DNA from: an uncultured Bacteroidales bacterium
GTDB taxonomy: Bacteria > Bacteroidota > Bacteroidia > Bacteroidales > UBA932
DNA length: 64,000 nt
Reading direction: 5' to 3'
Assembly (NCBI GenBank): GCA_905233655.1
Contig: CAJOCS010000001.1
Coordinates: forward strand, 1,004-65,003
Every line of letters begins with the position of its first letter. The stretch's first letter is position 1. The position numbers and the translations under genes are program-made. Positions 3,207 to 21,356 of the stretch are shown here, one piece after another. The notes below the pieces were generated by a model that was given only the letters and a program-made list of their open reading frames with translations, was not told the origin of the DNA and searched no databases.

Positions 3207-3773
3207 ATGAAGACTAAATACTTCTTCGTTTATGTATTTGTGGGAATCGCTTTCCTGGCGGTTTCACTGTGGGTGTGGCTCTCCGGCGGCAGGAACGCCC
3301 GCGCTGTCAACGCCAAGTACCGCCTGGGCGGAGTGATGCTCACTGCATGGTCTTTCCTTTCCATGGTTTCCTGCGACATTCCCGGCCTGCCGCCCTTACC
3401 CGGCGGCGACAACGGGGATGACGGCATGATTATGTGCTACGACCCGGTGATGCCGGAAGAAGACTATACGCTGATAGAAATCCGGCATGCCGACCAGTCC
3501 CGGAATTTTGAAGCCAACGAAATCGTTCCCGGCGACACCATTGTCGTGAGAATCATCAAGCCCGCCAATACGGAATACACCCTTGAAGTCACTTCGATGG
3601 CAAGCGAAGAAAACCCTGAAGAGATGGTGCTGCAGCACACCGATTTCACGGTGGAGCAGGCCGACGACGTCTCCGCCGAGATCCTTCTTTCGGAAGATAT
3701 CACCTATAAGGGACAGGGCGCCATTTGGGTGGAGAGCCAGTGGAGCGGATACAGGTCTGTCATCATCCTCTGA
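3207..3773 (+). CDS. Putative membrane protein/lipoprotein with MCYDPVM motif, possibly rSAM-associated
   Basis: ORF with two N-terminal hydrophobic segments, then ...SMVSCDIPGLPP...MIMCYDPVMPEEDY. Confidence 0.65.
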   Translation: MKTKYFFVYVFVGIAFLAVSLWVWLSGGRNARAVNAKYRLGGVMLTAWSFLSMVSCDIPGLPPLPGGDNGDDGMIMCYDPVMPEEDYTLIEIRHADQSRNFEANEIVPGDTIVVRIIKPANTEYTLEVTSMASEENPEEMVLQHTDFTVEQADDVSAEILLSEDITYKGQGAIWVESQWSGYRSVIIL

Positions 3774-3819
3774 TGCCGCATTCCTCGCCGTAGAAGATTT
3801 TGCGGGCAAAAACGCCGAC

Positions 3820-4044
3820 ATGCGCTTTTGCAATCACTCTCCAAAGGTTCTGGGTAACATTTTTGAAAGGCCGATAGAGGACATTCTCAACGACGGGAGC
3901 GTCCGGGAGTGGTACTCGGCAGTCCCGGAAAATTGTGCCGACTGCCCGCTTCTTGCCCGTTGCGCCGGCGGCTGCCGCGCGGCCTCTGAACAGGTCTTCG
4001 GCACTTTCGCCCACGAAGACCCCATCCTTTCCGCAAGCCTATAG
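3820..4044 (+). pseudogene. Orphan SPASM-domain C-terminal remnant of a radical SAM protein
   Basis: MRFCNHSPKVLGNIFERPIEDILNDGSVREWYSAVPENCADCPLLARCAGGCRAASEQVFG has a SPASM-type cysteine pattern; no radical SAM CxxxCxxC core upstream in any frame. Confidence 0.65.
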
Positions 4045-5232
4045 AAGACCTTCTTCGCCGGCGCGGAAAATGAGTTCGGCGGTGTTTGCAACGTCGAATT
4101 TCACCAGCAGGCGCTTGCGGTACCACTTGATGGTTTCCGGGCTCAGGCACAAGGCGTCGGCAATCTGGCCTGCGGTGTAACCCTTCGAAAGAAGGTCCAG
4201 AATCTCCTTCTCACGGCCGGTAATCTTCACTCCGGAGGCCGATTTAATCTCGGACGGCGGCTCCGAAGCCACCTGCATCGTAACGCGGCGGCGCCGGACT
4301 AACCATACGGCAAGCACTACTACGAGCAAAAGCAGGACCACGCAGAAGAGTATAACCCAGGTGAGTACCCGTTTCTGGGCGCTAAGCACCTCTTTCATAT
4401 AATTCAGATTCTCCGTACGGAAACCGGGGCTGTAGTCCGGATGGGCGGCGTAGTAGGCATCGGCCCTACGAAGGAAAGGAAGGCTCTTCCAGGGCTTACC
4501 CTGCTCCATATACAGGCGGCCGTAGCCCTTCCAGACGTCCACTATCATCAGCGAATCGGCCGAGGCCACAGCATATTCCATGGCCTTGTCGTAAGCGGCC
4601 TCGGCCTTTCGCATATCGCCTTCATCTATCCAGGTCTCGCCGATATTGTACCACAGCACGGAATTGCTCTCGTTCCAGCCATAGCGCTCGAAAATCTCTC
4701 CAGCCTTTTCATACCACCGCATGGCCTCCGGAATGGAGTCCATCATATTGTAAAGGTTGCCGATGGAACCGTAAAGGGCCGAATAGGCATCGTCTATCTC
4801 GCGCTGCGGATAACCTTCTGGATTGGTAGGAGAGGTGGCGCCTGCGGCCATCGAATCCACGCACACGAGCGAGAGTTTGTAATAGAACATGGCGCTGTCG
4901 TACTGCTCCCGGCCGTAGAAAAGCTGCCCGATGTAGCGGAGAGCGTCGCTGTCGGCATCATTCCATCCCCGGGGATGGCTTATGCCTATGGCCTTGCGCG
5001 CATAGAACATGCTCTTCTCTGTGTTGACGTGGCTGTAACCCCGCATCAGCGACCTGTAGGCATTGTTCAGGTCCACCAGCTGCCGCGTCGAGGCATTGTC
5101 AATCGCATCGGGCGTCCACGCAGCGACAACCCTCTCCAGGGAGTCCAGATTCTGCACCCTCTGGTCGTTGTACGCAAACCCGTGAACAGGCCACAAGGCA
5201 AGCGCCAAAGCTATCACCGCTCTTCTTTTCAC
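4039..5232 (-). CDS. TPR-containing membrane-anchored LuxR-family transcriptional regulator
   Basis: ORF track 4039..5241; TPR-like N-terminus, TM segment VLTWVILFCVVLLLLVVVLAVWLV, C-terminal HTH ITGREKEILDLLSKGYTAGQIADALCLSPETIKWYRKRLLVKF; GTG at 5232 preferred because the upstream TTG lies inside a -7 motif. Confidence 0.82.
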   Translation of the reverse strand: MKRRAVIALALALWPVHGFAYNDQRVQNLDSLERVVAAWTPDAIDNASTRQLVDLNNAYRSLMRGYSHVNTEKSMFYARKAIGISHPRGWNDADSDALRYIGQLFYGREQYDSAMFYYKLSLVCVDSMAAGATSPTNPEGYPQREIDDAYSALYGSIGNLYNMMDSIPEAMRWYEKAGEIFERYGWNESNSVLWYNIGETWIDEGDMRKAEAAYDKAMEYAVASADSLMIVDVWKGYGRLYMEQGKPWKSLPFLRRADAYYAAHPDYSPGFRTENLNYMKEVLSAQKRVLTWVILFCVVLLLLVVVLAVWLVRRRRVTMQVASEPPSEIKSASGVKITGREKEILDLLSKGYTAGQIADALCLSPETIKWYRKRLLVKFDVANTAELIFRAGEEGLL

Positions 5233-5238
5233 AAGAAA

Positions 5239-5246
5239 CAAATATA
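5239..5246 (-). promoter_or_regulatory. Bacteroidetes -7 element TATATTTG for the LuxR-TPR gene
   Basis: Minus-strand TATATTTG, then 6 nt, then GTG. Confidence 0.5.
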
Positions 5247-5393: not shown

Positions 5394-5525
5394 ATGAAAA
5401 AGTATTACGAAAGCCCCGCTGCAGAAACAGTGGACGTTACGCTGGAATTCAACATCCTTTCCGGCGAGAATCAGTTGTCAAGTCCCAACAATTACTCCGA
5501 CGGAGGAGAAGGATTCGACTGGTAG
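5394..5525 (+). CDS. 43-aa microprotein MKKYYESPAAETVDVTLEFNILSGENQLSSPNNYSDGGEGFDW
   Basis: ATG-to-TAG short ORF read directly; paralogous to the 13664..13798 ORF; both precede a fimbrillin-like lipoprotein gene. Confidence 0.7.
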   Translation: MKKYYESPAAETVDVTLEFNILSGENQLSSPNNYSDGGEGFDW

Positions 5526-5554
5526 CATGTATAACCTCTAAAAGTGAAATCGAA

Positions 5555-7006
5555 ATGAAAAAATACATGTTCATCGCAGTTTCGGCCATTATAGCTATCG
5601 CCGCCTGCACCAAAGAAGCTTACACTCCTGCAGAAGAACCCACAGGAATTCCCTTCACCGCTACCATCCAGAACGACGCCGACGTCCGCGCCATCACCGA
5701 CAATGGAACAAGCCTCAACGTAAACTGGGCCGAGAACGAAACCCTTGCCCTCATCTACACCGCCGGCGGCTCCGCCCGCAATACCACCGCAACCATCACC
5801 GATGTGGACGGAACTGGTAAGGCAACCATCAGTGCAACACTTGACGCAGCCGTCACCGACGGAACAAGCGTGACCATTATCTATCCCGCATCCGCAGCCG
5901 ACGGCACCACCGGCAACGTCCTTGCAAGCGTAATCGCCACTCAGGACGGCACGCTCAGCGCTTCCCGCGACGTTCACAAGGGCAGCGGAACCATCAAGGT
6001 AGAGTCTGCCACGGCTTCACTTTCAAATGGCGCCACACTCACAGCACAGTATGCAATCTGCAAATTCGAGATTGAAGATGCCGACGGCTCCAACAGCCTT
6101 TACGTCAGCAGTTTCGTAGTGAAGGACAACTCCGACAATATCATCACCACCGTTACCCCCGGTTCCTCCACAAGCACTCTCTATGTGGTGCTTCCCGCCA
6201 CCTCCGGTCTGCTCTGGTTCGAGGCTGTCTCTTCCGGCGCTCCTTACGTAGCCAAGGGCACTGCAAGCCTTTCCGCCGGCTCGGTCTACCGCCCCACAGT
6301 GAAGATGGCAACCATCTTCAACATCATCGGCGCCAACGGCAAATTCTATAAAGACAAGGCCGATGCAGTCGCTGCAGGCACCACCGCCGCCGCCATTATC
6401 GCCTACCTGGGCGATGACACCGCGGAAAGCGGATATCAGCACGGACTTGCAATTTCGATGAGAAACTGCGGAACCAGTTCATACAGATGGAGAAGCACCG
6501 AACTCTCCGGCATCGACAACGGAACCGGGCATCAGTTCACCACTTATTCAGACGTACTGGCGGCAAAAGAATCAGGTCTGGAATTGTCTGCCGGTAAGGA
6601 CGATGCGGACAATTACCCTGCTTTCTATGCGGCGATTCATAATGATATCAGCCTTACCGGCGAAACCGGTATGACGGCAAGTCTTCCCTCAAGCGGCACC
6701 AGCACATGGTTTCTGCCTTCGGCTTTCCAATGGAACCAGATTATGTGTGGCCTAATGGGAAACTATTCAGGTCTGACTAATATGCCTAACAGTGTATATA
6801 ATGTCCTTGCCAATTCTACTTCTGATAAGTTTTCTGCCGCAACCGGGTCTACAAATTGCTGGTTCAAGACAGCCACACCCTCTATTCACACCAGTTCTGA
6901 ATATGATGCGGACAATAACTGGAACTTTAGATCCTCTGCAAGCGGTGGAGAATTGTCGACAGCAGGAAAGAATTTCTGTTTTGTCCGCGCTGCGCTGGCA
7001 TTCTAA
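5555..7006 (+). CDS. Fimbrillin-like lipoprotein
   Basis: Lipoprotein signal MKKYMFIAVSAIIAIAAC; fimbrillin-like beta-rich N-terminal region (GIPFTATIQNDADVRAITDNGTSLNVNWAENETLALIY). Confidence 0.65.
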   Translation: MKKYMFIAVSAIIAIAACTKEAYTPAEEPTGIPFTATIQNDADVRAITDNGTSLNVNWAENETLALIYTAGGSARNTTATITDVDGTGKATISATLDAAVTDGTSVTIIYPASAADGTTGNVLASVIATQDGTLSASRDVHKGSGTIKVESATASLSNGATLTAQYAICKFEIEDADGSNSLYVSSFVVKDNSDNIITTVTPGSSTSTLYVVLPATSGLLWFEAVSSGAPYVAKGTASLSAGSVYRPTVKMATIFNIIGANGKFYKDKADAVAAGTTAAAIIAYLGDDTAESGYQHGLAISMRNCGTSSYRWRSTELSGIDNGTGHQFTTYSDVLAAKESGLELSAGKDDADNYPAFYAAIHNDISLTGETGMTASLPSSGTSTWFLPSAFQWNQIMCGLMGNYSGLTNMPNSVYNVLANSTSDKFSAATGSTNCWFKTATPSIHTSSEYDADNNWNFRSSASGGELSTAGKNFCFVRAALAF

Positions 7007-7042
7007 ATCATAGATAACAGCGCGAAAGCGTTGTGGAGAAAA

Positions 7043-7107
7043 GGGATGGGGATGATGCGACGTGGGCGTCGGCCTTGAATTCGCCCGCGGAGCATTATCC
7101 CCATCCC
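7043..7107. other. Long intergenic inverted repeat/hairpin
   Basis: GGGATGGGGAT (7043-7053) is perfectly complementary to ATCCCCATCCC (7097-7107); inner pairing GGGCG/CGCCC and ATGC/GCAT. Confidence 0.7.
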
Positions 7108-7167
7108 GTATTATATCCGCGCGAGCACAGATTGCGCGTGCGCATACGCATTAAGGATATTTTTTCT

Positions 7168-7175
7168 TACCTTTG
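7168..7175 (+). promoter_or_regulatory. Bacteroidetes -7 element TACCTTTG upstream of susC
   Basis: Exact TAnnTTTG match about 30 nt before the MRTKYRILL start. Confidence 0.6.
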
Positions 7176-7204
7176 TATGATTGAGTCCCGTAACACTAAA
7201 ACGG

Positions 7205-10192
7205 ATGCGCACGAAATACCGAATTCTTTTGCAGATACTTCTGCTCCTGATGCCGCTGACAGCGCTGGCACAGGGCGGAAGGACACACCGATACACCATT
7301 TCAGTGGTGGACAGCGACGGGCAGCCCCTTCCGGGAGCCGTAGCCCTGAACGTAGCCACGAACCAGGGATATACCGCCGCAGAGGACGGCGTAATCGGCC
7401 TGGAGGAGAGAGAAGGGAGCGTCCTGAACATAATGTTCCTCGGTTTTGACGACGCCACCATCACCCTGGGCCGCGAGCTTGCCCTTACGGTAACGATGCA
7501 GCCCACCCAGTCCATGATGGAAGAGGCCGTGGTGATAGGCTATGGCTCGGTGAAACGCAAGGATATCACAACAGCCGTGTCGGTGGTTTCCACCGAAGAC
7601 GTGGACATGAGGCCAATAACGTCGGCCGGTTCAATACTGCAGGGAAAGGCGGCGGGCGTGCAGGTGGTGCAGCCTTCGGGAATGCCCGGAGCGGCACTGT
7701 CAATCAGAGTGAGGGGCGCAACCTCGGTTCAGGCATCCAACGAACCACTGTACGTCGTGGACGGTACTCCCACCGACGACATCTCTCATCTGGCCCCGGA
7801 AGACATCGCGTCGATGCAGGTTCTCAAGGACGCCTCGTCGTCGGCCATATACGGCGCCAGGGCGGCGAACGGCGTGGTGCTCATTAACACCAAGGGAGGC
7901 CAGACGGGAAGGACGGACCTTCATTTCAATGCATACGCCGGCGTGTCGCGCCTCGGAAAGACAATGCAGGCGCTCAACACACAGCAGTACAAGGATCTGA
8001 TGGCCGAACTGGCCGGCAAAACCGTCACCGTTCCCACCATTCCGGAAAGCGAAAACCGGTACACGGACTGGAACGACATCCTCTTCGGCACCGGTGTTAC
8101 GCAGAACTATCAGCTTTCACTCTCAAGCGGGAGCGAGCGGCTGCGTTACTACGTTTCCGCCGGCCACAGCGAGGAAAAGGGCATCGTGAACAAAGCCTAT
8201 TTCCGGAGGACGAATTTCCGCGCCAACGTGGACAACGAACTCTTCCCCTGGCTGAACGTGAAACTCAATGCGGGCTATTCCCACAATGCCGGCCGCAGCG
8301 TATATGAAAGCCGCAGCTCCATGAGGGCCGGTTCCATACTTTCGGCCATAAACACCCCGCCATTCATGCAAGTCTGGGCCGACGAAGCCCACACCACCTA
8401 CGACGAAGACGCCTACGGCTCCAGGATCCTGAACCCGATGGCGGCGAACGCTGCCGACATGACAAATTCCGCCGACCGCCTTACCGGCGGCCTCACGCTG
8501 GAGCTGAAGCCGCTTCCGGGCCTCACTTTCCGCAGCGCAGGCTCAATTGACCTTTCAAATTCCCGCAACGACTACTATCTGGACCCGGTTTCCACCTCCG
8601 ACGGACGCTCCACCAAAGGATATGTTTCGGAAGGAGTGTCCCGCAACTTCGAATGGCTGTGGGAGAATATCCTCACCTATGCACTCAGCATAGGAGGAGT
8701 ACACAACCTGAACGTAATGGCCGGTTCAACCCTTCAGCATGCACAGTGGGACGGCAACAGCCTCGCGGGCTATGACCTTCCCGCAGCCTACCCCGACATC
8801 CATTCGGTGGGCGTGGCGAACCAGCTGGACGAAGACGCCACATGGTCGAGCTCCAGCGCCTGGGCCCTGGCTTCCTTCCTGGGAAGGGTAAATTACGATT
8901 TCGGCGGACGATATCTCTTCTCGGCCAACATCAGGGCCGACGGTTCGTCGCGCTTCGCTCCCGGCCACCGCTGGGGCGTGTTCCCTTCGGTGTCGGCGGC
9001 ATGGAGAATCTCGAACGAAGATTTCATGGCCGGCAGCCGCGAATGGCTCGACGACCTTAAGCTCCGCGCCGGATGGGGCCGAAACGGCAACCAGGGCGGA
9101 ATAGGCAATTACGCCTACCTCGCCTCCATGAGGGGCGTCAAAGTGGTTCCCACCGAGGAGAATGCATATCCCGGTCTGGCAATCACCCAGAACACCGCGG
9201 CAAACCCGGAACTCACCTGGGAAAAGACCACGCAGCTGAATGTGGGACTCGATGTTTCGATGTTCAGATCCAGGCTCATGCTTAGCGCCGACGCCTACGT
9301 AAAGCGCACCACCGACCTGCTGCTTACAGTAGCCCTGCCGGACAACGTGAACCTCCCCGGAGGCATTACCCGCAACGACGGCGAAATGCTCAACCGGGGC
9401 ATGGAATTCACCCTTTCGAGCAAGAACTTCACCGGTGAATTCAAATGGGACACCGACCTCAACCTTTCGCTGAACCGCAACAAAGTGCTGGAGCTGGGCC
9501 TTAACAAAGTCTACTACTACGCCTCCATGTACACCACTGGAGAACCTGCGGTTATTCTCCGGGAAGGCCTGCCGCTCGGCAGCTTCTTCGGCTACAAATC
9601 CCTTGGCGTTAACCCGGAAACCGGCGACATCGACTATGAGGACATCTCCGGGAACGGCAGCATCGGCCCGGAAGACAGGACCGTGATTGGCTGCGCGCAG
9701 CCGGATTTCATCTTCGGCATCACCAACGACTTTTCCTGGAAGGGCCTCCACCTGGAAGTTTTCCTGCAGGGAAGCTATGGAAACGACATTTTCAATGCGT
9801 CGCGAATCGACACGGAAGGCATGTTCGACTTCCGCAACCAGAGCGTGGCGGTCCTGCGCCGGTGGATGCGTCCGGGCATGGAGACCGACATTCCCCGCTC
9901 GGGAAACACGGAGAACATCCGGAACTCTTCCCGTTTCGTGGAGGACGGCTCATACCTGAGGCTCAAGAGCGTTACTCTCTCGTATTCGCTGCCACGGCGC
10001 CTTCTCGGGCGTAGCGGAGTGAAAGAGCTCCTGGTATATGTGACCGGGCAGAACCTTCTCACCCTCACCAGTTATTCCGGCTTCGACCCGGAAGTGAACG
10101 CCTACGGAGCAAGTTCCGTGGCTATGGGAGTGGACTACGGCACCTACCCCCAGAGCCGCACCTGCATTGCCGGAGTAAAAATAGGATTTTAA
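7205..10192 (+). CDS. SusC/RagA-family TonB-dependent outer membrane receptor
   Basis: Carboxypeptidase-like N-domain; plug motif VVIGYGSVKRKDITTAVSVV...LQGKAAGVQVVQPSGMPGAALSIRVRG; ATG at 7205 preferred over TTG at 7181. Confidence 0.95.
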   Translation: MRTKYRILLQILLLLMPLTALAQGGRTHRYTISVVDSDGQPLPGAVALNVATNQGYTAAEDGVIGLEEREGSVLNIMFLGFDDATITLGRELALTVTMQPTQSMMEEAVVIGYGSVKRKDITTAVSVVSTEDVDMRPITSAGSILQGKAAGVQVVQPSGMPGAALSIRVRGATSVQASNEPLYVVDGTPTDDISHLAPEDIASMQVLKDASSSAIYGARAANGVVLINTKGGQTGRTDLHFNAYAGVSRLGKTMQALNTQQYKDLMAELAGKTVTVPTIPESENRYTDWNDILFGTGVTQNYQLSLSSGSERLRYYVSAGHSEEKGIVNKAYFRRTNFRANVDNELFPWLNVKLNAGYSHNAGRSVYESRSSMRAGSILSAINTPPFMQVWADEAHTTYDEDAYGSRILNPMAANAADMTNSADRLTGGLTLELKPLPGLTFRSAGSIDLSNSRNDYYLDPVSTSDGRSTKGYVSEGVSRNFEWLWENILTYALSIGGVHNLNVMAGSTLQHAQWDGNSLAGYDLPAAYPDIHSVGVANQLDEDATWSSSSAWALASFLGRVNYDFGGRYLFSANIRADGSSRFAPGHRWGVFPSVSAAWRISNEDFMAGSREWLDDLKLRAGWGRNGNQGGIGNYAYLASMRGVKVVPTEENAYPGLAITQNTAANPELTWEKTTQLNVGLDVSMFRSRLMLSADAYVKRTTDLLLTVALPDNVNLPGGITRNDGEMLNRGMEFTLSSKNFTGEFKWDTDLNLSLNRNKVLELGLNKVYYYASMYTTGEPAVILREGLPLGSFFGYKSLGVNPETGDIDYEDISGNGSIGPEDRTVIGCAQPDFIFGITNDFSWKGLHLEVFLQGSYGNDIFNASRIDTEGMFDFRNQSVAVLRRWMRPGMETDIPRSGNTENIRNSSRFVEDGSYLRLKSVTLSYSLPRRLLGRSGVKELLVYVTGQNLLTLTSYSGFDPEVNAYGASSVAMGVDYGTYPQSRTCIAGVKIGF

Positions 10193-10207
10193 CAAGGAGG
10201 AGCAATC

Positions 10208-11653
10208 ATGAAGAAACTGATTTCAATACTGTCTCTGACAATCCTCCTTGCAGGATGCGAAAAATTCCTGGACGTCAAACCCACGGCCGACCTCACCCGC
10301 CCCGCCGAACCTGAGACCGAAAACGACGCCATTGTGCCGAAATATGCCAGCGAGGCCGAAGCCCAGGCAGAACTGAACGGCGTCTACGCCATTTTCAAGG
10401 CCGACATCTACGAGATGGAGAGCTTCCTTGTGGGCGACGTTATGACCGACAACTGCTACGTGGGCGGCGACGGAGTGAACGAAGAACAGTTCGACAACGT
10501 GGCCCTTACCGCCACCAACAACCTCGTGGACGTGATGTGGCAGCAGTACTACGCCATCATAGGCTCCGCGACCACCGTAATCGAGAACGTGAGGCTTATG
10601 GACGCAGAGGCAATCGCCACCGACGCCGCCGCAAAGATAATCGCCGAGGCCCGTTTCCTGCGCGCCTGGGTCCTCTTTGACGTGGTACGCCTCTGGGGCG
10701 CCGCTCCGCTTACCCTGGAGCTCCTGCCGCCCATAACCGCCGCCAACCTGGACCGCCTCTATCCCCTGATGTATCCGGAAAGGACCGGCGTCGAAGAGCT
10801 CTACGACCAGATTCTCGCCGACCTTGACGACGACGACGTGATATCGCTTCTGGACTCCTACTCCCACGGAGCCTTCCGCGCCAGCAAAGGAGCCGCCTAC
10901 GGCCTCAAGGCCAAGGTTCTCGCCACCCGCGGAAGCGTAGCCACAAGGGATTACAGCCAGGTAATCCTCTACTGCGACAAAGCCATCGCCGAGGGCTACA
11001 AGCTCGTGGACGACTTCGATTCGCTCTGGACCGTGGCCGGAAAATTCTCCACCGAGGGCATGTTAGAACTCCTGTTCACCACCGAGGCCGAGCAGCACAA
11101 CTGGGCCTACTGGGTGCTCCTCTCGGACATTTCCGGCGAAGTCTCCGTAAGCTGGAGACGCTACTGCACGCCCACTAAGGAGCTGCTTGCGAAATTCGAC
11201 ACGGAGCACGACGTCCGCTACGCCTCCAGCTTCTACTGGGCGAAGGTTCCGTACAACACCTGGTACCCCGCCGGCAATTACCCGCTGGCCTACAAGATAA
11301 GGCAGAAAGACAATAACATTATACTGCTCCGGCTTGCCGACATCCTCCTTCTCAAGGCCGAAGCCCTCGTTGAAAACGGCGACGCGAAGGGCGCCGTCGA
11401 GATTGTGAACACCATCCGAACCAGAGCGCATATCGGCGCCCTGGACGTGAAGATGTCGAAGGAGCAGGCGCGCCTTGCCGTGGAGAACGAGCGTCAGCTT
11501 GAACTTGTGCTGGAAGGCCAGCGCTGGTACGACCTCGTGCGAAACGAAAGGGCCGTGGAGGTGCTTGGAATTGAGCCTTTCCGCCAGCTTCTCCCCATAC
11601 CGCAGAGCCAGATGGACATCAACACCAGGCTCACCCAGAACGAAGGATATTGA
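10208..11653 (+). CDS. SusD/RagB-family nutrient-binding lipoprotein
   Basis: MKKLISILSLTILLAGCEKFLDVKP; follows susC; SusD-like C-terminus ELVLEGQRWYDLVR. Confidence 0.95.
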   Translation: MKKLISILSLTILLAGCEKFLDVKPTADLTRPAEPETENDAIVPKYASEAEAQAELNGVYAIFKADIYEMESFLVGDVMTDNCYVGGDGVNEEQFDNVALTATNNLVDVMWQQYYAIIGSATTVIENVRLMDAEAIATDAAAKIIAEARFLRAWVLFDVVRLWGAAPLTLELLPPITAANLDRLYPLMYPERTGVEELYDQILADLDDDDVISLLDSYSHGAFRASKGAAYGLKAKVLATRGSVATRDYSQVILYCDKAIAEGYKLVDDFDSLWTVAGKFSTEGMLELLFTTEAEQHNWAYWVLLSDISGEVSVSWRRYCTPTKELLAKFDTEHDVRYASSFYWAKVPYNTWYPAGNYPLAYKIRQKDNNIILLRLADILLLKAEALVENGDAKGAVEIVNTIRTRAHIGALDVKMSKEQARLAVENERQLELVLEGQRWYDLVRNERAVEVLGIEPFRQLLPIPQSQMDINTRLTQNEGY

Positions 11654-11665
11654 ATAATATAAGCC

Positions 11666-13662
11666 ATGAAAAAAGTACTTGCACTTATTGCACTGGCTCT
11701 TTCCCTGATGGTTTCATGCGGGAAGGAAAAACCCGAAAATAACGGAGGCGACGGCACCCTGGCCATCACCTCCCTTGCAATAACCTCGGGCGAGACGGTC
11801 CAGATTCCCGGCACCGTCACTTTCCAGGTGATAATTGAGGACGAAAAAGTCAATCTGTCCACCCTGGAAGTGTCCGCAGCCCTTTCCGACGGCACCGTAA
11901 TCGCATCGGCCTCCATCCGTACCCCCGGTCACAAGGCCGACATCCCCGACGGCTCCATCGAACTTCCGTTCGCCGCCGGCATGGTGGATGGAGAGAGCAT
12001 CGGCCTCAGTTTCAAGGCCATCAACGTGGAAGGCGCCGAGGTGCGTCAGAACCGGATAGTAACGCTCAAGAGGCCCGTCCTCCCGAAGACGCTCTACATG
12101 ACCATCGGCAAGGATGTCTATCCCATGACGCAGAACCTTCAGAACCCGAATCTGTATGAAACCGCATCGGGTGCCTTCGAGAACATCGCCACGGCGGTTA
12201 TCGCCACTTCCGAGGAGCCCGGAGCCAATGATTTCGTATGGGTTGGAAGCGACAAGCCCTGCACCGGACGCCTGGGCACGCTCGGAGAAGCTGGAATAGA
12301 GCTCAGCTTTCCCTCCTGGCTGGTGGACAAGTGGGCCTTCGACACCGAGAGCTTTGAAGTGTCGCCGAAGGGCGAGGAGCTAAACATAAGCATAGCCGGA
12401 ACCAAACTGACTCCTTCCGGCGGCATCCTCTATGCCAGCGTACAGTTCCAGCAGGGTGCCACCGTTGAGATTAAAGGCATCTCCGACCTCCAGGGCGCAT
12501 GGAACCGCGACTTCTTCTCCTACGAAGGCGGCAAGCTCACTTTCCTTCGCGAAAGCGGCACCTACGACGTTTACTACAGTCCCAAATACAATTACATCTG
12601 GATTGCAAAGATGACTTCCGTCGCTCCGGAGAACTACTGGGTAATAGGCCACGGATTCACCTGCGCAACAGAATGGCACAACGACTACTTCTACGGCGGC
12701 TGGTCCGAGACCGACATCACCCGCATGGGCTACGCCGTGAAGGTTGGGGCCGACTCCTGGCAGTGCTCCATGTACCTGAACAACGCCCACGAGTGGGCCA
12801 CGGTCGAATTCGAAATCTATTCCGACCTCGAATGGGGCAAGGGCCAGGGAATTGAGCTCAGCACCATAAGCGGCGACACCAAGGGACTCACCATCGGCAA
12901 CGGAAAGGGCATAACCAGCACCTCCGGCTTCCAGAGCGGCTATTATACCTTCACCTTCCATGCCTCCACCCATACCGCTGAAATCCAGCGAATCTCAGAG
13001 TGGCAGGGAAGCAGCGATTCCGGAATCAGCATCAACGGCGTCTCTCTCGAAAACGACGCCTCAGGCTATGCCTTCGCCTCCATCAACTTCACCAAGGGAC
13101 AGAGTGTGAGCGTAAGCGGCATCTCAGACCTTGAAGGCGCCTACAACCGCGACTTCTTCTTCCAGTACGCCTCCTCCGCGAAAGCGGCCAGTGGAGCGTC
13201 CGTTACTACCCGGCATGGAACTACATCTGGGTGTTCAACGAGAGCCTCACCTACCCCGACTGCCTCTACGTCCTCGGAAACGGCAAGATGTCCTGCCCGG
13301 TGTGGTACAACGCCCTCGGCGCCCCCACCGACAACTTCTACCTGCGTTCGGTGCCATATTGCTGCATAGCCCCGAAGATAGCCGACAATGAATTCCAGGC
13401 CACCATGTACCTCTCCACCGACAACGACTGGAAGGACGTACGCCTCGAGTTCTACAGCGACCTCGCCTGGGGCAAGGCCGAGCCCGTGAAACTCGCCGAC
13501 GCGGCCATCACCGGCAACGCCGCAGCCATGTTCGAGATTGTGAACCCCGGTCTTGACGGCTGCAACATCCACAGCCTGGATTCCTTCGAGGACGGTTACT
13601 ACCGCGTAATCTTCCGCACGTCGGCCTCCGGCGCCACCGTTGAAATCAATAAAGTTCAATAA
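11666..13662 (+). CDS. DUF5121/DUF5125-type surface lipoprotein with an internal frameshift near 13150-13200
   Basis: Two ORFs (11666..13369 and 13231..13662) jointly encode two copies of the same module; second copy resumes in another frame as RESGQWSVRYYPAWNYIWVFNE. Confidence 0.75.
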
Positions 13663-13663
13663 T

Positions 13664-13798
13664 ATGAAAAAAGAGTATCTGACTCCGCAGGCCGATAGCG
13701 TCCTGCTTAAGCTGGAGAGTGTTTTCCTGCTCAGCACGGCAAGCGGAAACACCACTGAAAACATCACCGAACAGGCCTATGACGGCGACTGGGAATAA
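13664..13798 (+). CDS. 44-aa microprotein MKKEYLTPQADSVLLKLESVFLLSTASGNTTENITEQAYDGDWE
   Basis: Short ORF read directly; shares the MKKxYxxPxA(E/D)xVxxxLE pattern with 5394..5525. Confidence 0.7.
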   Translation: MKKEYLTPQADSVLLKLESVFLLSTASGNTTENITEQAYDGDWE

Positions 13799-13811
13799 AA
13801 CTGCATGCCTT

Positions 13812-15276
13812 ATGAAAAAGATTTTGATTCTGGCTCTGGGCATGGTATTCGCCCTTTTTGCCTGCAACAAGGAAAACTCTACCGTTATTGGTGCAATTGA
13901 AATGACCTTCACGGGAAGTCTCGAACAGCTTCCCGAAACCAAGACATACCTCGAGTGGGATGGCGGAATCCCCGGCTATAAGGTTGGCTGGTGGGCCGGC
14001 AATGAAATCCGTGTATTCGACGGCACCGCTACCGCCCGCAAGTTCACCGCTTCCACAAAGGGTGAATCTTCCGATTTCACCGGCTCCCGCCACATACTAT
14101 GCCCTGTATCCATATCAGGCCGACGCCAAGTGCACCGCCGGCGGAGTATTCACCGCCGAGCTGCCTGCAACCCAGCCCCTCGTGGCCGGAGAACTGGCCG
14201 ACAACCTGAACCTCACCGTAGCGATGACCACCGGCACCAGCTTCGCCTTCAAGAATGTTGGAACCATCCTTGCATTCAGGCTCACTAATGTGGTTACGAA
14301 CTGCAGCTATGTCACCATCGAGGGAAACAACAGCGAAACCCTCGCCGGCACGCTCACGATCGATTACAACGGCGGAGACCCTTCGGTTACCTCCGTCGCA
14401 AGCCCTTCAACCGTGGTCACCCTTACGAATTCCAACCCCACCCTTGACAGCGGCACCTACTTCTGCGTGGTAAATCCCGTAAACATTACCGGCGGTTTCA
14501 CAATCACCTTCTACGACGGTTCCGACAACGAGATTACCCATGTCTCCAGCACCAAGCCCGTGAACATGACACGCGGGAAGCTCCTTAACCTCGGAACCCT
14601 GCCTCTCAAGCCCACCATCAACGGCACCGCCCTCACCTACGATTCGGTGAACAAGCGCTATTATGGAGACTTCACCTTCGACGGATCCGCAATCTCCATG
14701 TCCGGAATCGACATCGCCCACGCAGTCAATCCCGACTTCTTCTCCTACAGCGCCGGCGTTCTCACCTTCCTGCGCAGCACTTCCATTACCTGGACCGTAG
14801 AGTACTTCACCGACTACAACTTCATCTGGGTGTCGAACACCATGCTTGGCTTCCCGGATGTACTCTATGTAGTGGGCAACGGCAAATCGGCTTGTCCTTC
14901 CTATGAACACGCAACCGGCGAACCCGGCGTCATGTGGAATCTGAGCGCACCTTATTTCTGTGTGGCACCGCTCATTGAAACAACGGCCGAAGCCCACACG
15001 CTTCAGGTAACCATGTCCGTCTCCACCGGCAATTCATGGGGAGACGTGCGCGTCTACTTTGGCAAGGGCGGCGGCAACTGGGCCACGCTTTCCTCCAGCG
15101 CCACGGTAATCAGCGGAGACAATGCTTCTTCGTTCGAAATTGCCGACGACGGCGGCGGAACCATGACCCTGCACAGCAAGGCCGGATTTGACAAAGACGG
15201 TTACTACCGCATGGTCCTCACCTACGACCGCACGGAAAACATCATTACCGGAATAGCACTTACAAAACTCGACTAA
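13812..15276 (+). CDS. Fimbrillin-like N-domain plus DUF5121-type module lipoprotein, frameshift near 14090
   Basis: MKKILILALGMVFALFACNKENS...TKGESSDFTGS in one frame, continuing as PATYYALYPYQADAK... in the 13960..15276 ORF; C-terminal module matches those of the preceding protein. Confidence 0.7.
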
Positions 15277-20041: not shown

Positions 20042-21091
20042 TTAAAGAATTTTGGAATAATGGCACTGGAGCAGCTGAGGAGGCTGCCCGTGCCAGTTGT
20101 GCATTCCGTTGCCAAGGCAGTTCTTCCATTCCCTGCAGCCCTCGCACTCTCCGGTGCGGGCCCAGCTGCGGTCCCGGAAGGGCTGGAAACGGGTGTCCCA
20201 GACCTCGAAGAAATTGTCCTTGTAGATACTGCCCTGGGAGAATGCATCCCGGTCGATATTCGGGCAGGCGCAGATGCGTCCGTCTATCAGAACGGATGCG
20301 ATGTTCACTCCCGCGCGGCAGAAATACCGTATGTCACGGACTGCTTCTTCATAACGGCCCAGATAGCCCTCGCAGCTGAAAGTGACCTTCATGGGGCCTC
20401 CTTCCTCCCGCTTTTCGCGGATAAATTCCATAAGGGAGGTGAACTGGGCGTTGTCCAGATGCATGTCCGGGTCGGAGGCCGCCCTGCCTATGGGAATGAT
20501 GGTGAAAAGCCTCCACTGCTTCACTCCCTGGCCGCGCAGGACCTCGTAAAGTTCCTGAAGCTCCCCTATATTGCGTTTGTTTACGCAGGTCACAACGTCG
20601 GAATTCAGCCTCGGCTCCGCGGCAATGAGGCCGATGGCTTTCAGCGCCCGGGCGTAGCTGCCGGGCCTTCCGCGCATCCAGTCGTGCGATGCCTCAAGGC
20701 CGTCGAGGCTTACCGTTATGGCGCCCATTCCGGCCCCCACGAGCTTTGCGTGCATGGCTTCGTCGTAGAACCAGCCGTTTGAAACCATTCCCCATCCGAT
20801 TCTCCGGCGGCGGAGTTCCGCGCCGACGGTGGCGATGTCCGGCCTCAGCAAAGGCTCTCCGCCGGTGAGCACCACGCAGAGGTCCTTCGCCCTCTCCTTC
20901 TCCGGAATGGTGTCAATCGCTGCGAGGAAATCCTCGAGGGGCATATCCTTTTCGCGGCAGAGCTGCGAGCAGTCGCTTCCGCAGTGGCGGCAGTGAAGGT
21001 TGCAGCGGGTGGTGCACTCCCAGAAAAGATAACTGAGTTCATGCACTTTTATCTCATTGTCTCGGAAAAGTCTGAAGAAAAACGGATTCAC
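20042..21091 (-). CDS. Radical SAM/SPASM protein of the TIGR04133-like rSAM/lipoprotein system
   Basis: CTTRCNLHCRHCGSDC radical SAM motif, LTGGEPLLR, C-terminal SPASM-like cysteines CEGCREWKNCLGN; GTG start. Confidence 0.85.
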   Translation of the reverse strand: MNPFFFRLFRDNEIKVHELSYLFWECTTRCNLHCRHCGSDCSQLCREKDMPLEDFLAAIDTIPEKERAKDLCVVLTGGEPLLRPDIATVGAELRRRRIGWGMVSNGWFYDEAMHAKLVGAGMGAITVSLDGLEASHDWMRGRPGSYARALKAIGLIAAEPRLNSDVVTCVNKRNIGELQELYEVLRGQGVKQWRLFTIIPIGRAASDPDMHLDNAQFTSLMEFIREKREEGGPMKVTFSCEGYLGRYEEAVRDIRYFCRAGVNIASVLIDGRICACPNIDRDAFSQGSIYKDNFFEVWDTRFQPFRDRSWARTGECEGCREWKNCLGNGMHNWHGQPPQLLQCHYSKIL

Positions 21092-21108
21092 TACGGTATG
21101 TTTTTTTG

Positions 21109-21116
21109 CAAATATA
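21109..21116 (-). promoter_or_regulatory. -7 element TATATTTG for the radical SAM gene
   Basis: Minus-strand TATATTTG 17 nt upstream of the GTG start. Confidence 0.5.
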
Positions 21117-21127
21117 ATGATAATTGC

Positions 21128-21135
21128 TATTTTTG
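21128..21135 (+). promoter_or_regulatory. -7 element TATTTTTG with a TTTG at 21105-21108 (19-nt spacer)
   Basis: Matches TTTG-N19-TAnnTTTG; ATG lies 5 nt downstream. Confidence 0.6.
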
Positions 21136-21140
21136 CAATT

Positions 21141-21356
21141 ATGAAATGGCTTCACAACTTCCTTAAAGGAGCCTCCCTCACAGGGGCGCTCTTTGTGTTC
21201 CAGGCCTGCTACGGCATGCCTCAGCCTCCCGAGTTCGAAGACGCGGAAGAGGCGCCTGTAACTGCCTCGGCAGAGACGAAGGCCGGAGACGAAGGTGAGG
21301 ACATTGTTCCTCTCGGCGAAGCGGAAAATGCCACCGATGTCTCCGAAGTGGAGTAA
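21141..21356 (+). CDS. Small radical-SAM-associated putative lipoprotein (TIGR04134-like)
   Basis: MKWLHNFLKGASLTGALFVFQACYGMPQPPEFEDAEEA: lipobox FQAC, 71 aa, divergent from the rSAM gene. Confidence 0.7.
   Translation: MKWLHNFLKGASLTGALFVFQACYGMPQPPEFEDAEEAPVTASAETKAGDEGEDIVPLGEAENATDVSEVE

Follow-up and report, generated by a model that had tools for sequence, protein, structure and literature searches.

The closest described system is that of the linear polyphosphorylated peptides (LPPs), for which the same five proteins as those considered here were reported from Bacillota, together with YxxP precursors (Popov et al. 2026, PMC13381572). YxxP-dependent binding to the RiPP recognition element (RRE), RRE-dependent cleavage by an S26-like peptidase and multiple phosphorylation of the core Ser3 were shown in that study, P-13 being held by N33 of LppB and Y-16 by D70. 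LPPs were stated to be restricted to Bacillota (PMC13381572). That RREs recognise the YxxP motif is documented (PMC12710340). Lasso peptides with a discrete B1, among them the paeninodin type, resemble the system described here: they too have a YxxP/WxxP leader, a PqqD-like B1, an exporter, and tailoring genes for a kinase and a nucleotidyltransferase. RiPP precursors are also described from the same order, Bacteroidales. Those have a GG leader, a C39 peptidase exporter (PCATs) and rSAM/YcaO clusters (PMC10352776), whereas a YxxP leader, an RRE and an S26 peptidase are found here. Finally, the HPr-rel-A system has an HprK-like kinase (HprK-related kinase A, TIGR04352) beside a PqqD-like chaperone (PqqD-related, TIGR04353). 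Profile matches to this system were weak here and all below the curated cut-offs. The description of HPr-rel-A is not known to include an S26 protease or a YxxP precursor.

Two microproteins and their gene neighbourhood

The window is the whole stretch of 64,000 nucleotides that was analysed, taken from a MAG (1.73 Mb, 83% complete) of an uncultured Bacteroidales bacterium. Two short ORFs are present on its + strand at 5394-5525 and 13664-13798. Their sequences and spacing were confirmed as reported in the preliminary description: 29 nt separate peptide 1 from the ATG of a fimbrillin-like lipoprotein gene (5555), and 13 nt separate peptide 2 from that of another (13812). Leaders were predicted from the family alignment. 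The predicted leader of peptide 1 is MKKYYESPAAETVDVTLEFNILSG (5394..5465), with YxxP, alternating hydrophobic residues, an E and ILSG; the predicted core ENQLSSPNNYSDGGEGFDW and the stop codon follow (5466..5525). Peptide 2 was divided in the same way into a predicted leader MKKEYLTPQADSVLLKLESVFLLS (13664..13735) and a predicted core TASGNTTENITEQAYDGDWE with its stop codon (13736..13798).

All of the main genes between 5394 and 18637 lie on the + strand. Peptide 1 is followed by its fimbrillin-like lipoprotein partner (5555..7006, 483 aa), a SusC/RagA-family TonB-dependent transporter (TIGR04056; 7181..10192), a SusD/RagB-family lipoprotein (10208..11653) and a lipoprotein without an upstream peptide, whose position suggests a SusE/F-like protein and whose frame is interrupted near 13130-13231 (11666..13662). 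The transporter is a neighbour in the same gene run and lies outside the peptide pathway, and the SusD/RagB-family lipoprotein is likewise a neighbour. Next come peptide 2, the second fimbrillin-like lipoprotein (13812..15276, beginning MKKILILALGMVFALFACNKE, frame interrupted near 14090, at 14085-14095), a lipoprotein of the TolB-like beta-propeller type and one more secreted protein. A divergent gene for a TPR/LuxR-type regulator (4039-5241) is located upstream of peptide 1.

The partner of peptide 1 was modelled with AF2. Without an alignment the model was uninformative (mean pLDDT 36). With 61 homologs, residues 30-250 mostly reached a pLDDT of 70-92 and were modelled as a beta-sandwich fimbrillin fold. 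The top PDB matches found with Foldseek were Bacteroides fimbrial/adhesion proteins and Porphyromonas gingivalis Mfa4 (E 6e-8 to 1e-4, probability about 1); TM-scores were low because the C-terminal half of the lipoprotein is unmodelled. Pfam Mfa_like_1 matched one of 61 partner lipoproteins. The N-terminal region of the window lipoprotein is thus predicted to have a fimbrillin fold, as in the fimbrillins of type V pili and Mfa-like proteins, but the partner lipoproteins described here vary in their C-terminal region.

A family of YxxP peptides encoded beside lipoprotein genes

Searched as a DNA pattern, MKKxYxxP gave three matches in the source genome and none in the reversed control. A profile search, as suggested in the preliminary description, was productive: a profile from 20 members matched in 115/151 genomes of the genus, at up to 17 places per genome. 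Eight matches were obtained in the source MAG, i.e. the two of the window and six others. Iteration of the profile over the fetched loci yielded 88 distinct peptides of 38-66 aa, and no ORF matched at E<1 when the DNA of these loci was reversed. No family was found for the peptides in Pfam or NCBIfam, whether they were queried singly or as an alignment. Used as a profile against the PDB, the peptide alignment returned nothing meaningful, and literature searches on the microprotein/fimbrillin pair found nothing. Both window peptides are members of a large unannotated family of Bacteroidales small proteins, with eight copies in the MAG and up to 17 in relatives.

An alignment of 100 peptides anchored on YxxP needed no gaps. 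Y(-3) and P(0) were present in 100/100, an invariance that is partly built in since the profile selects for Y and P. In the leader, E was found at +3 in 51% and at +10 in 57% of the peptides, hydrophobic residues at +4, +5, +7 (88%) and +9 and at +13/+14 (97-98%), and small residues at +16 (86%) and also at +17. Ser occupied +16/+17 in 73/88 peptides. The core of 13-38 residues contains 24% D/E, 2% K/R and 0% Cys, usually with an aromatic residue near its end. The layout is thus a gap-free YxxP leader followed by a short, acidic, Cys-free core. Nine homolog pairs gave a pS of 0.25 and a pN of 0.09, i.e. a dN/dS of about 0.33 (leader 0.39, core 0.27), a value biased low because the pairs were picked by protein similarity. 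This check, also proposed at the outset, revealed a synonymous excess in leader and core: the peptide homologs evolve under purifying selection.

In the source genome, seven of the eight peptides directly precede a lipoprotein gene; the remaining one lies at the end of a contig. For 66/88 distinct peptides the next gene was a same-strand lipoprotein within 150 nt, against a background of 32% in these lipoprotein-rich loci. Over all fetched loci, 89/95 genes directly downstream of a peptide encoded lipoproteins vs 227/1256 other genes; gene and lipoprotein calls were simple heuristics and many loci had been chosen for having peptides. With the fold match to Bacteroides fimbrial proteins, this adjacency supports the conserved unit of microprotein and fimbrillin-like lipoprotein proposed from the window. 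An N-terminal domain (TK..W..GD) is common to the downstream lipoproteins, whose C-terminal regions are diverse (GLUG, F5/8C, lyases, lipases, M64 peptidase, CBMs). A functional partnership between peptide and adjacent lipoprotein is putative.

Another arrangement was seen in genome G507 (17 peptide matches), where at loci L281 and L287 the peptides immediately follow large genes for secreted proteins instead of preceding them.

Many peptides overlap the downstream start codon or sit a few nucleotides from it, as would a leader ORF that acts on the lipoprotein gene by translational coupling or by attenuation and whose peptide is inert. The amino-acid constraint and the synonymous excess in leader and core make this improbable, as do the leader pattern kept across families, the clustering with RRE genes described below and the position of the G507 peptides downstream of a large gene. 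Somewhat less probable still is a cytoplasmic chaperone or pilot of the adjacent lipoprotein, unconnected to the RRE. It would suit the near one-to-one pairing with lipoproteins, but these are diverse outside the shared N-terminal domain, and such a role would leave unexplained YxxP, the constant leader, the division into leader and core and the linkage and co-occurrence of the peptides with the RRE cassette.

The RRE cassette and its co-occurrence with the peptides

A PqqD-like RRE (PF05402) was detected in 52/61 genomes of the genus. In most fetched loci it was accompanied by an HprK-like kinase, an S26-like protease and an MsbA-like exporter. In the source genome, the S26 protease, RRE and exporter are together on contig 30 and the kinase is on contig 22 (19026-19823). 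The RRE reading is frameshifted; this and the frame breaks in two lipoprotein genes of the window are probably indel errors of the MAG. No PF14907 nucleotidyltransferase was found in the source MAG, which is 83% complete; this NTP-transferase is present in compact operons of relatives. The S26 Ser/His/Asp motif was conserved in 98/99 homologs and also in the source-genome copy, and the protease of locus L189 matched an archaeal-type signal peptidase. The kinase P-loop was found in 94/96 homologs. Among 126 RRE sequences, the positions aligned with LppB N33 and D70 were N in 99% and D in 95%.

As read from sequence, the same enzyme set as in the LPP pathway occurs across many Bacteroidales families. 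Common to both are the YxxP leader with variable cores, a discrete RRE that has the N and D by which LppB holds Pro and Tyr, a SipW/archaeal-type S26 leader peptidase, an HprK-like kinase, an MsbA-like exporter and, here in compact operons, the PF14907 NTP-transferase. Both are without a lasso leader peptidase and frequently set in capsule loci. The two differ in their hosts (Bacteroidota here, Bacillota for LPPs) and in the precursors. Here a genome has many of these, for the most part dispersed and presumably processed in trans, each with a surface or secreted protein encoded alongside. They also differ in the full leader motif YxxPxVLxHQxIxFETxxS, which is not conserved here: only Y, P, hydrophobic-x-hydrophobic-E (35/88) and a Ser are kept, and HQ and the ET|xxS spacing are absent. 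Compared with structures, the Bacteroidales RRE profile was nearer TfuB1 (E=3e-5) than LppB (chain 9x8z_B, E=0.84), the identification of this chain as LppB resting on the chain name and the N-D spacing. Because the full Bacillota motif is not conserved and the RRE could fall inside or outside the LPP clade, the label 'LPP-like' is used rather than LPP.

Peptide and RRE occur in the same genomes. Out of 295 genomes of the order, 16 had a peptide, 18 a strong RRE and 13 both, with 10 family labels (Fisher p=2.9e-16, genomes being counted as independent with kinship ignored and MAG completeness varying). Peptide detection outside the genus rests on weak scores; in the order, a peptide went undetected in five of the genomes with an RRE, and a strong RRE was lacking from three of those with a peptide. 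In 248 genomes of the phylum, confident peptides were found only in the source genome and G168, which also gave the two best RRE matches, and G384 was marginal. Within the genus, RRE-positive genomes averaged 3.6 peptides vs 1.2 in RRE-negative ones (p=0.009, genome completeness uncontrolled).

The peptide family also clusters with the RRE cassette. Both were found in one gene cluster at nine loci from eight genomes (L187 and L188 of one genome, L193, L201, L268, L269, L270, L345 and L360). The order is peptide-lipoprotein-kinase-S26-RRE-NTase-exporter in L268 and in L360, which belongs to the cultured Proteiniphilum acetatigenes DSM 18083. L269 reads peptide-kinase-S26-RRE-NTase-exporter, and the cluster of L270 spans about 6 kb. 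Of 80 RRE loci taken from a scan of genome contigs, only L345 and L360 had a peptide detected within the fetched stretch; the dispersed arrangement is therefore the usual one.

Two other settings of the RRE were observed. In L202, L208, L211, L214 and L219, a capsule-locus RRE and a PF14907-like nucleotidyltransferase stand beside Wza/Wzc genes with no recognised peptide nearby; these loci may hold diverged precursors. In L144 (genome G073), kinase, S26 protease and RRE are near mobile-element-like genes, and a YxxP peptide (806-956) is several kb off.

Precursors of a radical SAM (SPASM) RiPP pathway had been thought conceivable in the preliminary description, and the window does contain a SPASM remnant (3790-4041) and a radical SAM gene (20042-21091). 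The remnant that it placed at 3820 stands as a SPASM C-terminal fragment on the + strand, straight after a lipoprotein-like ORF (3207-3773), but there is no radical SAM core upstream and a link to the peptides is not supported. A motif scan of local neighbourhoods found CxxxCxxC in only 3/632 genes of 60 peptide loci, the peptide core is without Cys, and the intact radical SAM protein of the window belongs to a separate family, TIGR04133 (rSAM/lipoprotein system). A radical SAM origin of the product is thus very improbable.

The TIGR04133 radical SAM/SPASM protein is encoded on the − strand and scored above the curated cut-off. Divergent from its gene is a short ORF (21057-21356) that no NCBIfam model matches.

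Lasso peptide precursors, with the same YxxP leader and RRE and a macrolactam ring, are just as improbable: YxxP, the discrete RRE and the presence of lasso PqqD models among the best weak NCBIfam matches speak for them, but this reading was set aside since leader peptidase B2 (PF13471) is missing from 59/61 genus genomes, the source genome included, and an S26-type protease accompanies the RRE instead. The only clear PF13471 match among the 61 genomes (G013, contig C1, 494687-495040) shares its contig with an RRE (488357-488554).

A putative LPP-like pathway and its products

We consider it probable, from the sequence comparisons above, that the microproteins are precursors of an RRE-dependent, LPP-like RiPP pathway, dispersed in the genome, matured in trans and putatively paired with surface proteins. 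The RiPP-precursor role that had been thought conceivable for the microprotein gains support from the leader/core layout and from the co-occurrence and clustering with the RRE. Docking, cleavage, Ser phosphorylation and export are inferred from the LPP precedent and from the conserved RRE residues, S26 motifs and kinase P-loops. The YxxP strand of the leader would dock on the discrete PqqD-like RRE. The S26 signal-peptidase-like protease would probably cut near [ILF][LCA]x[SGA]|S, and the Ser that opens the core is the probable substrate of the HprK-like kinase. The acidic core of 13-38 residues is probably moved out by the MsbA-like exporter, and the mature peptide probably acts at the cell surface with the adjacent protein. 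As the precursors are scattered and the machinery is encoded at other sites, with S26, RRE and exporter sharing a contig and the kinase on a second one, maturation would be in trans.

Several points count against this LPP-like pathway. Most precursors are not near the cassette, the source-genome RRE is frameshifted and PF14907 was not found in its incomplete MAG. The RRE profile is nearer TfuB1 than LppB and the full Bacillota motif is not conserved. In five order genomes the RRE was found with no peptide detected, in three the peptide without a strong RRE.

A broader model is advanced tentatively and is rather doubtful. One LPP-like maturation and export set would serve many precursors in trans, and every precursor would have a modular surface lipoprotein of its own encoded beside it, with a fimbrillin-like N-domain common to all and an enzyme or binding module that varies. 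The mature acidic peptide would be the surface partner of that protein, e.g. by completing or anchoring it, or as its link to the capsule. The ties of the peptides to surface lipoproteins and to capsule loci suggest where the product acts.

P. acetatigenes DSM 18083 is a cultured type strain with a compact seven-gene cluster, which makes binding, cleavage and phosphorylation open to direct testing. The distributed system, if true, would provide the first biological role to be proposed for the LPP class, whose range would then include Bacteroidota. Membership of the peptide family in such a pathway would, if true, provide a function for many short Bacteroidales ORFs that are missed by gene callers or labelled hypothetical.
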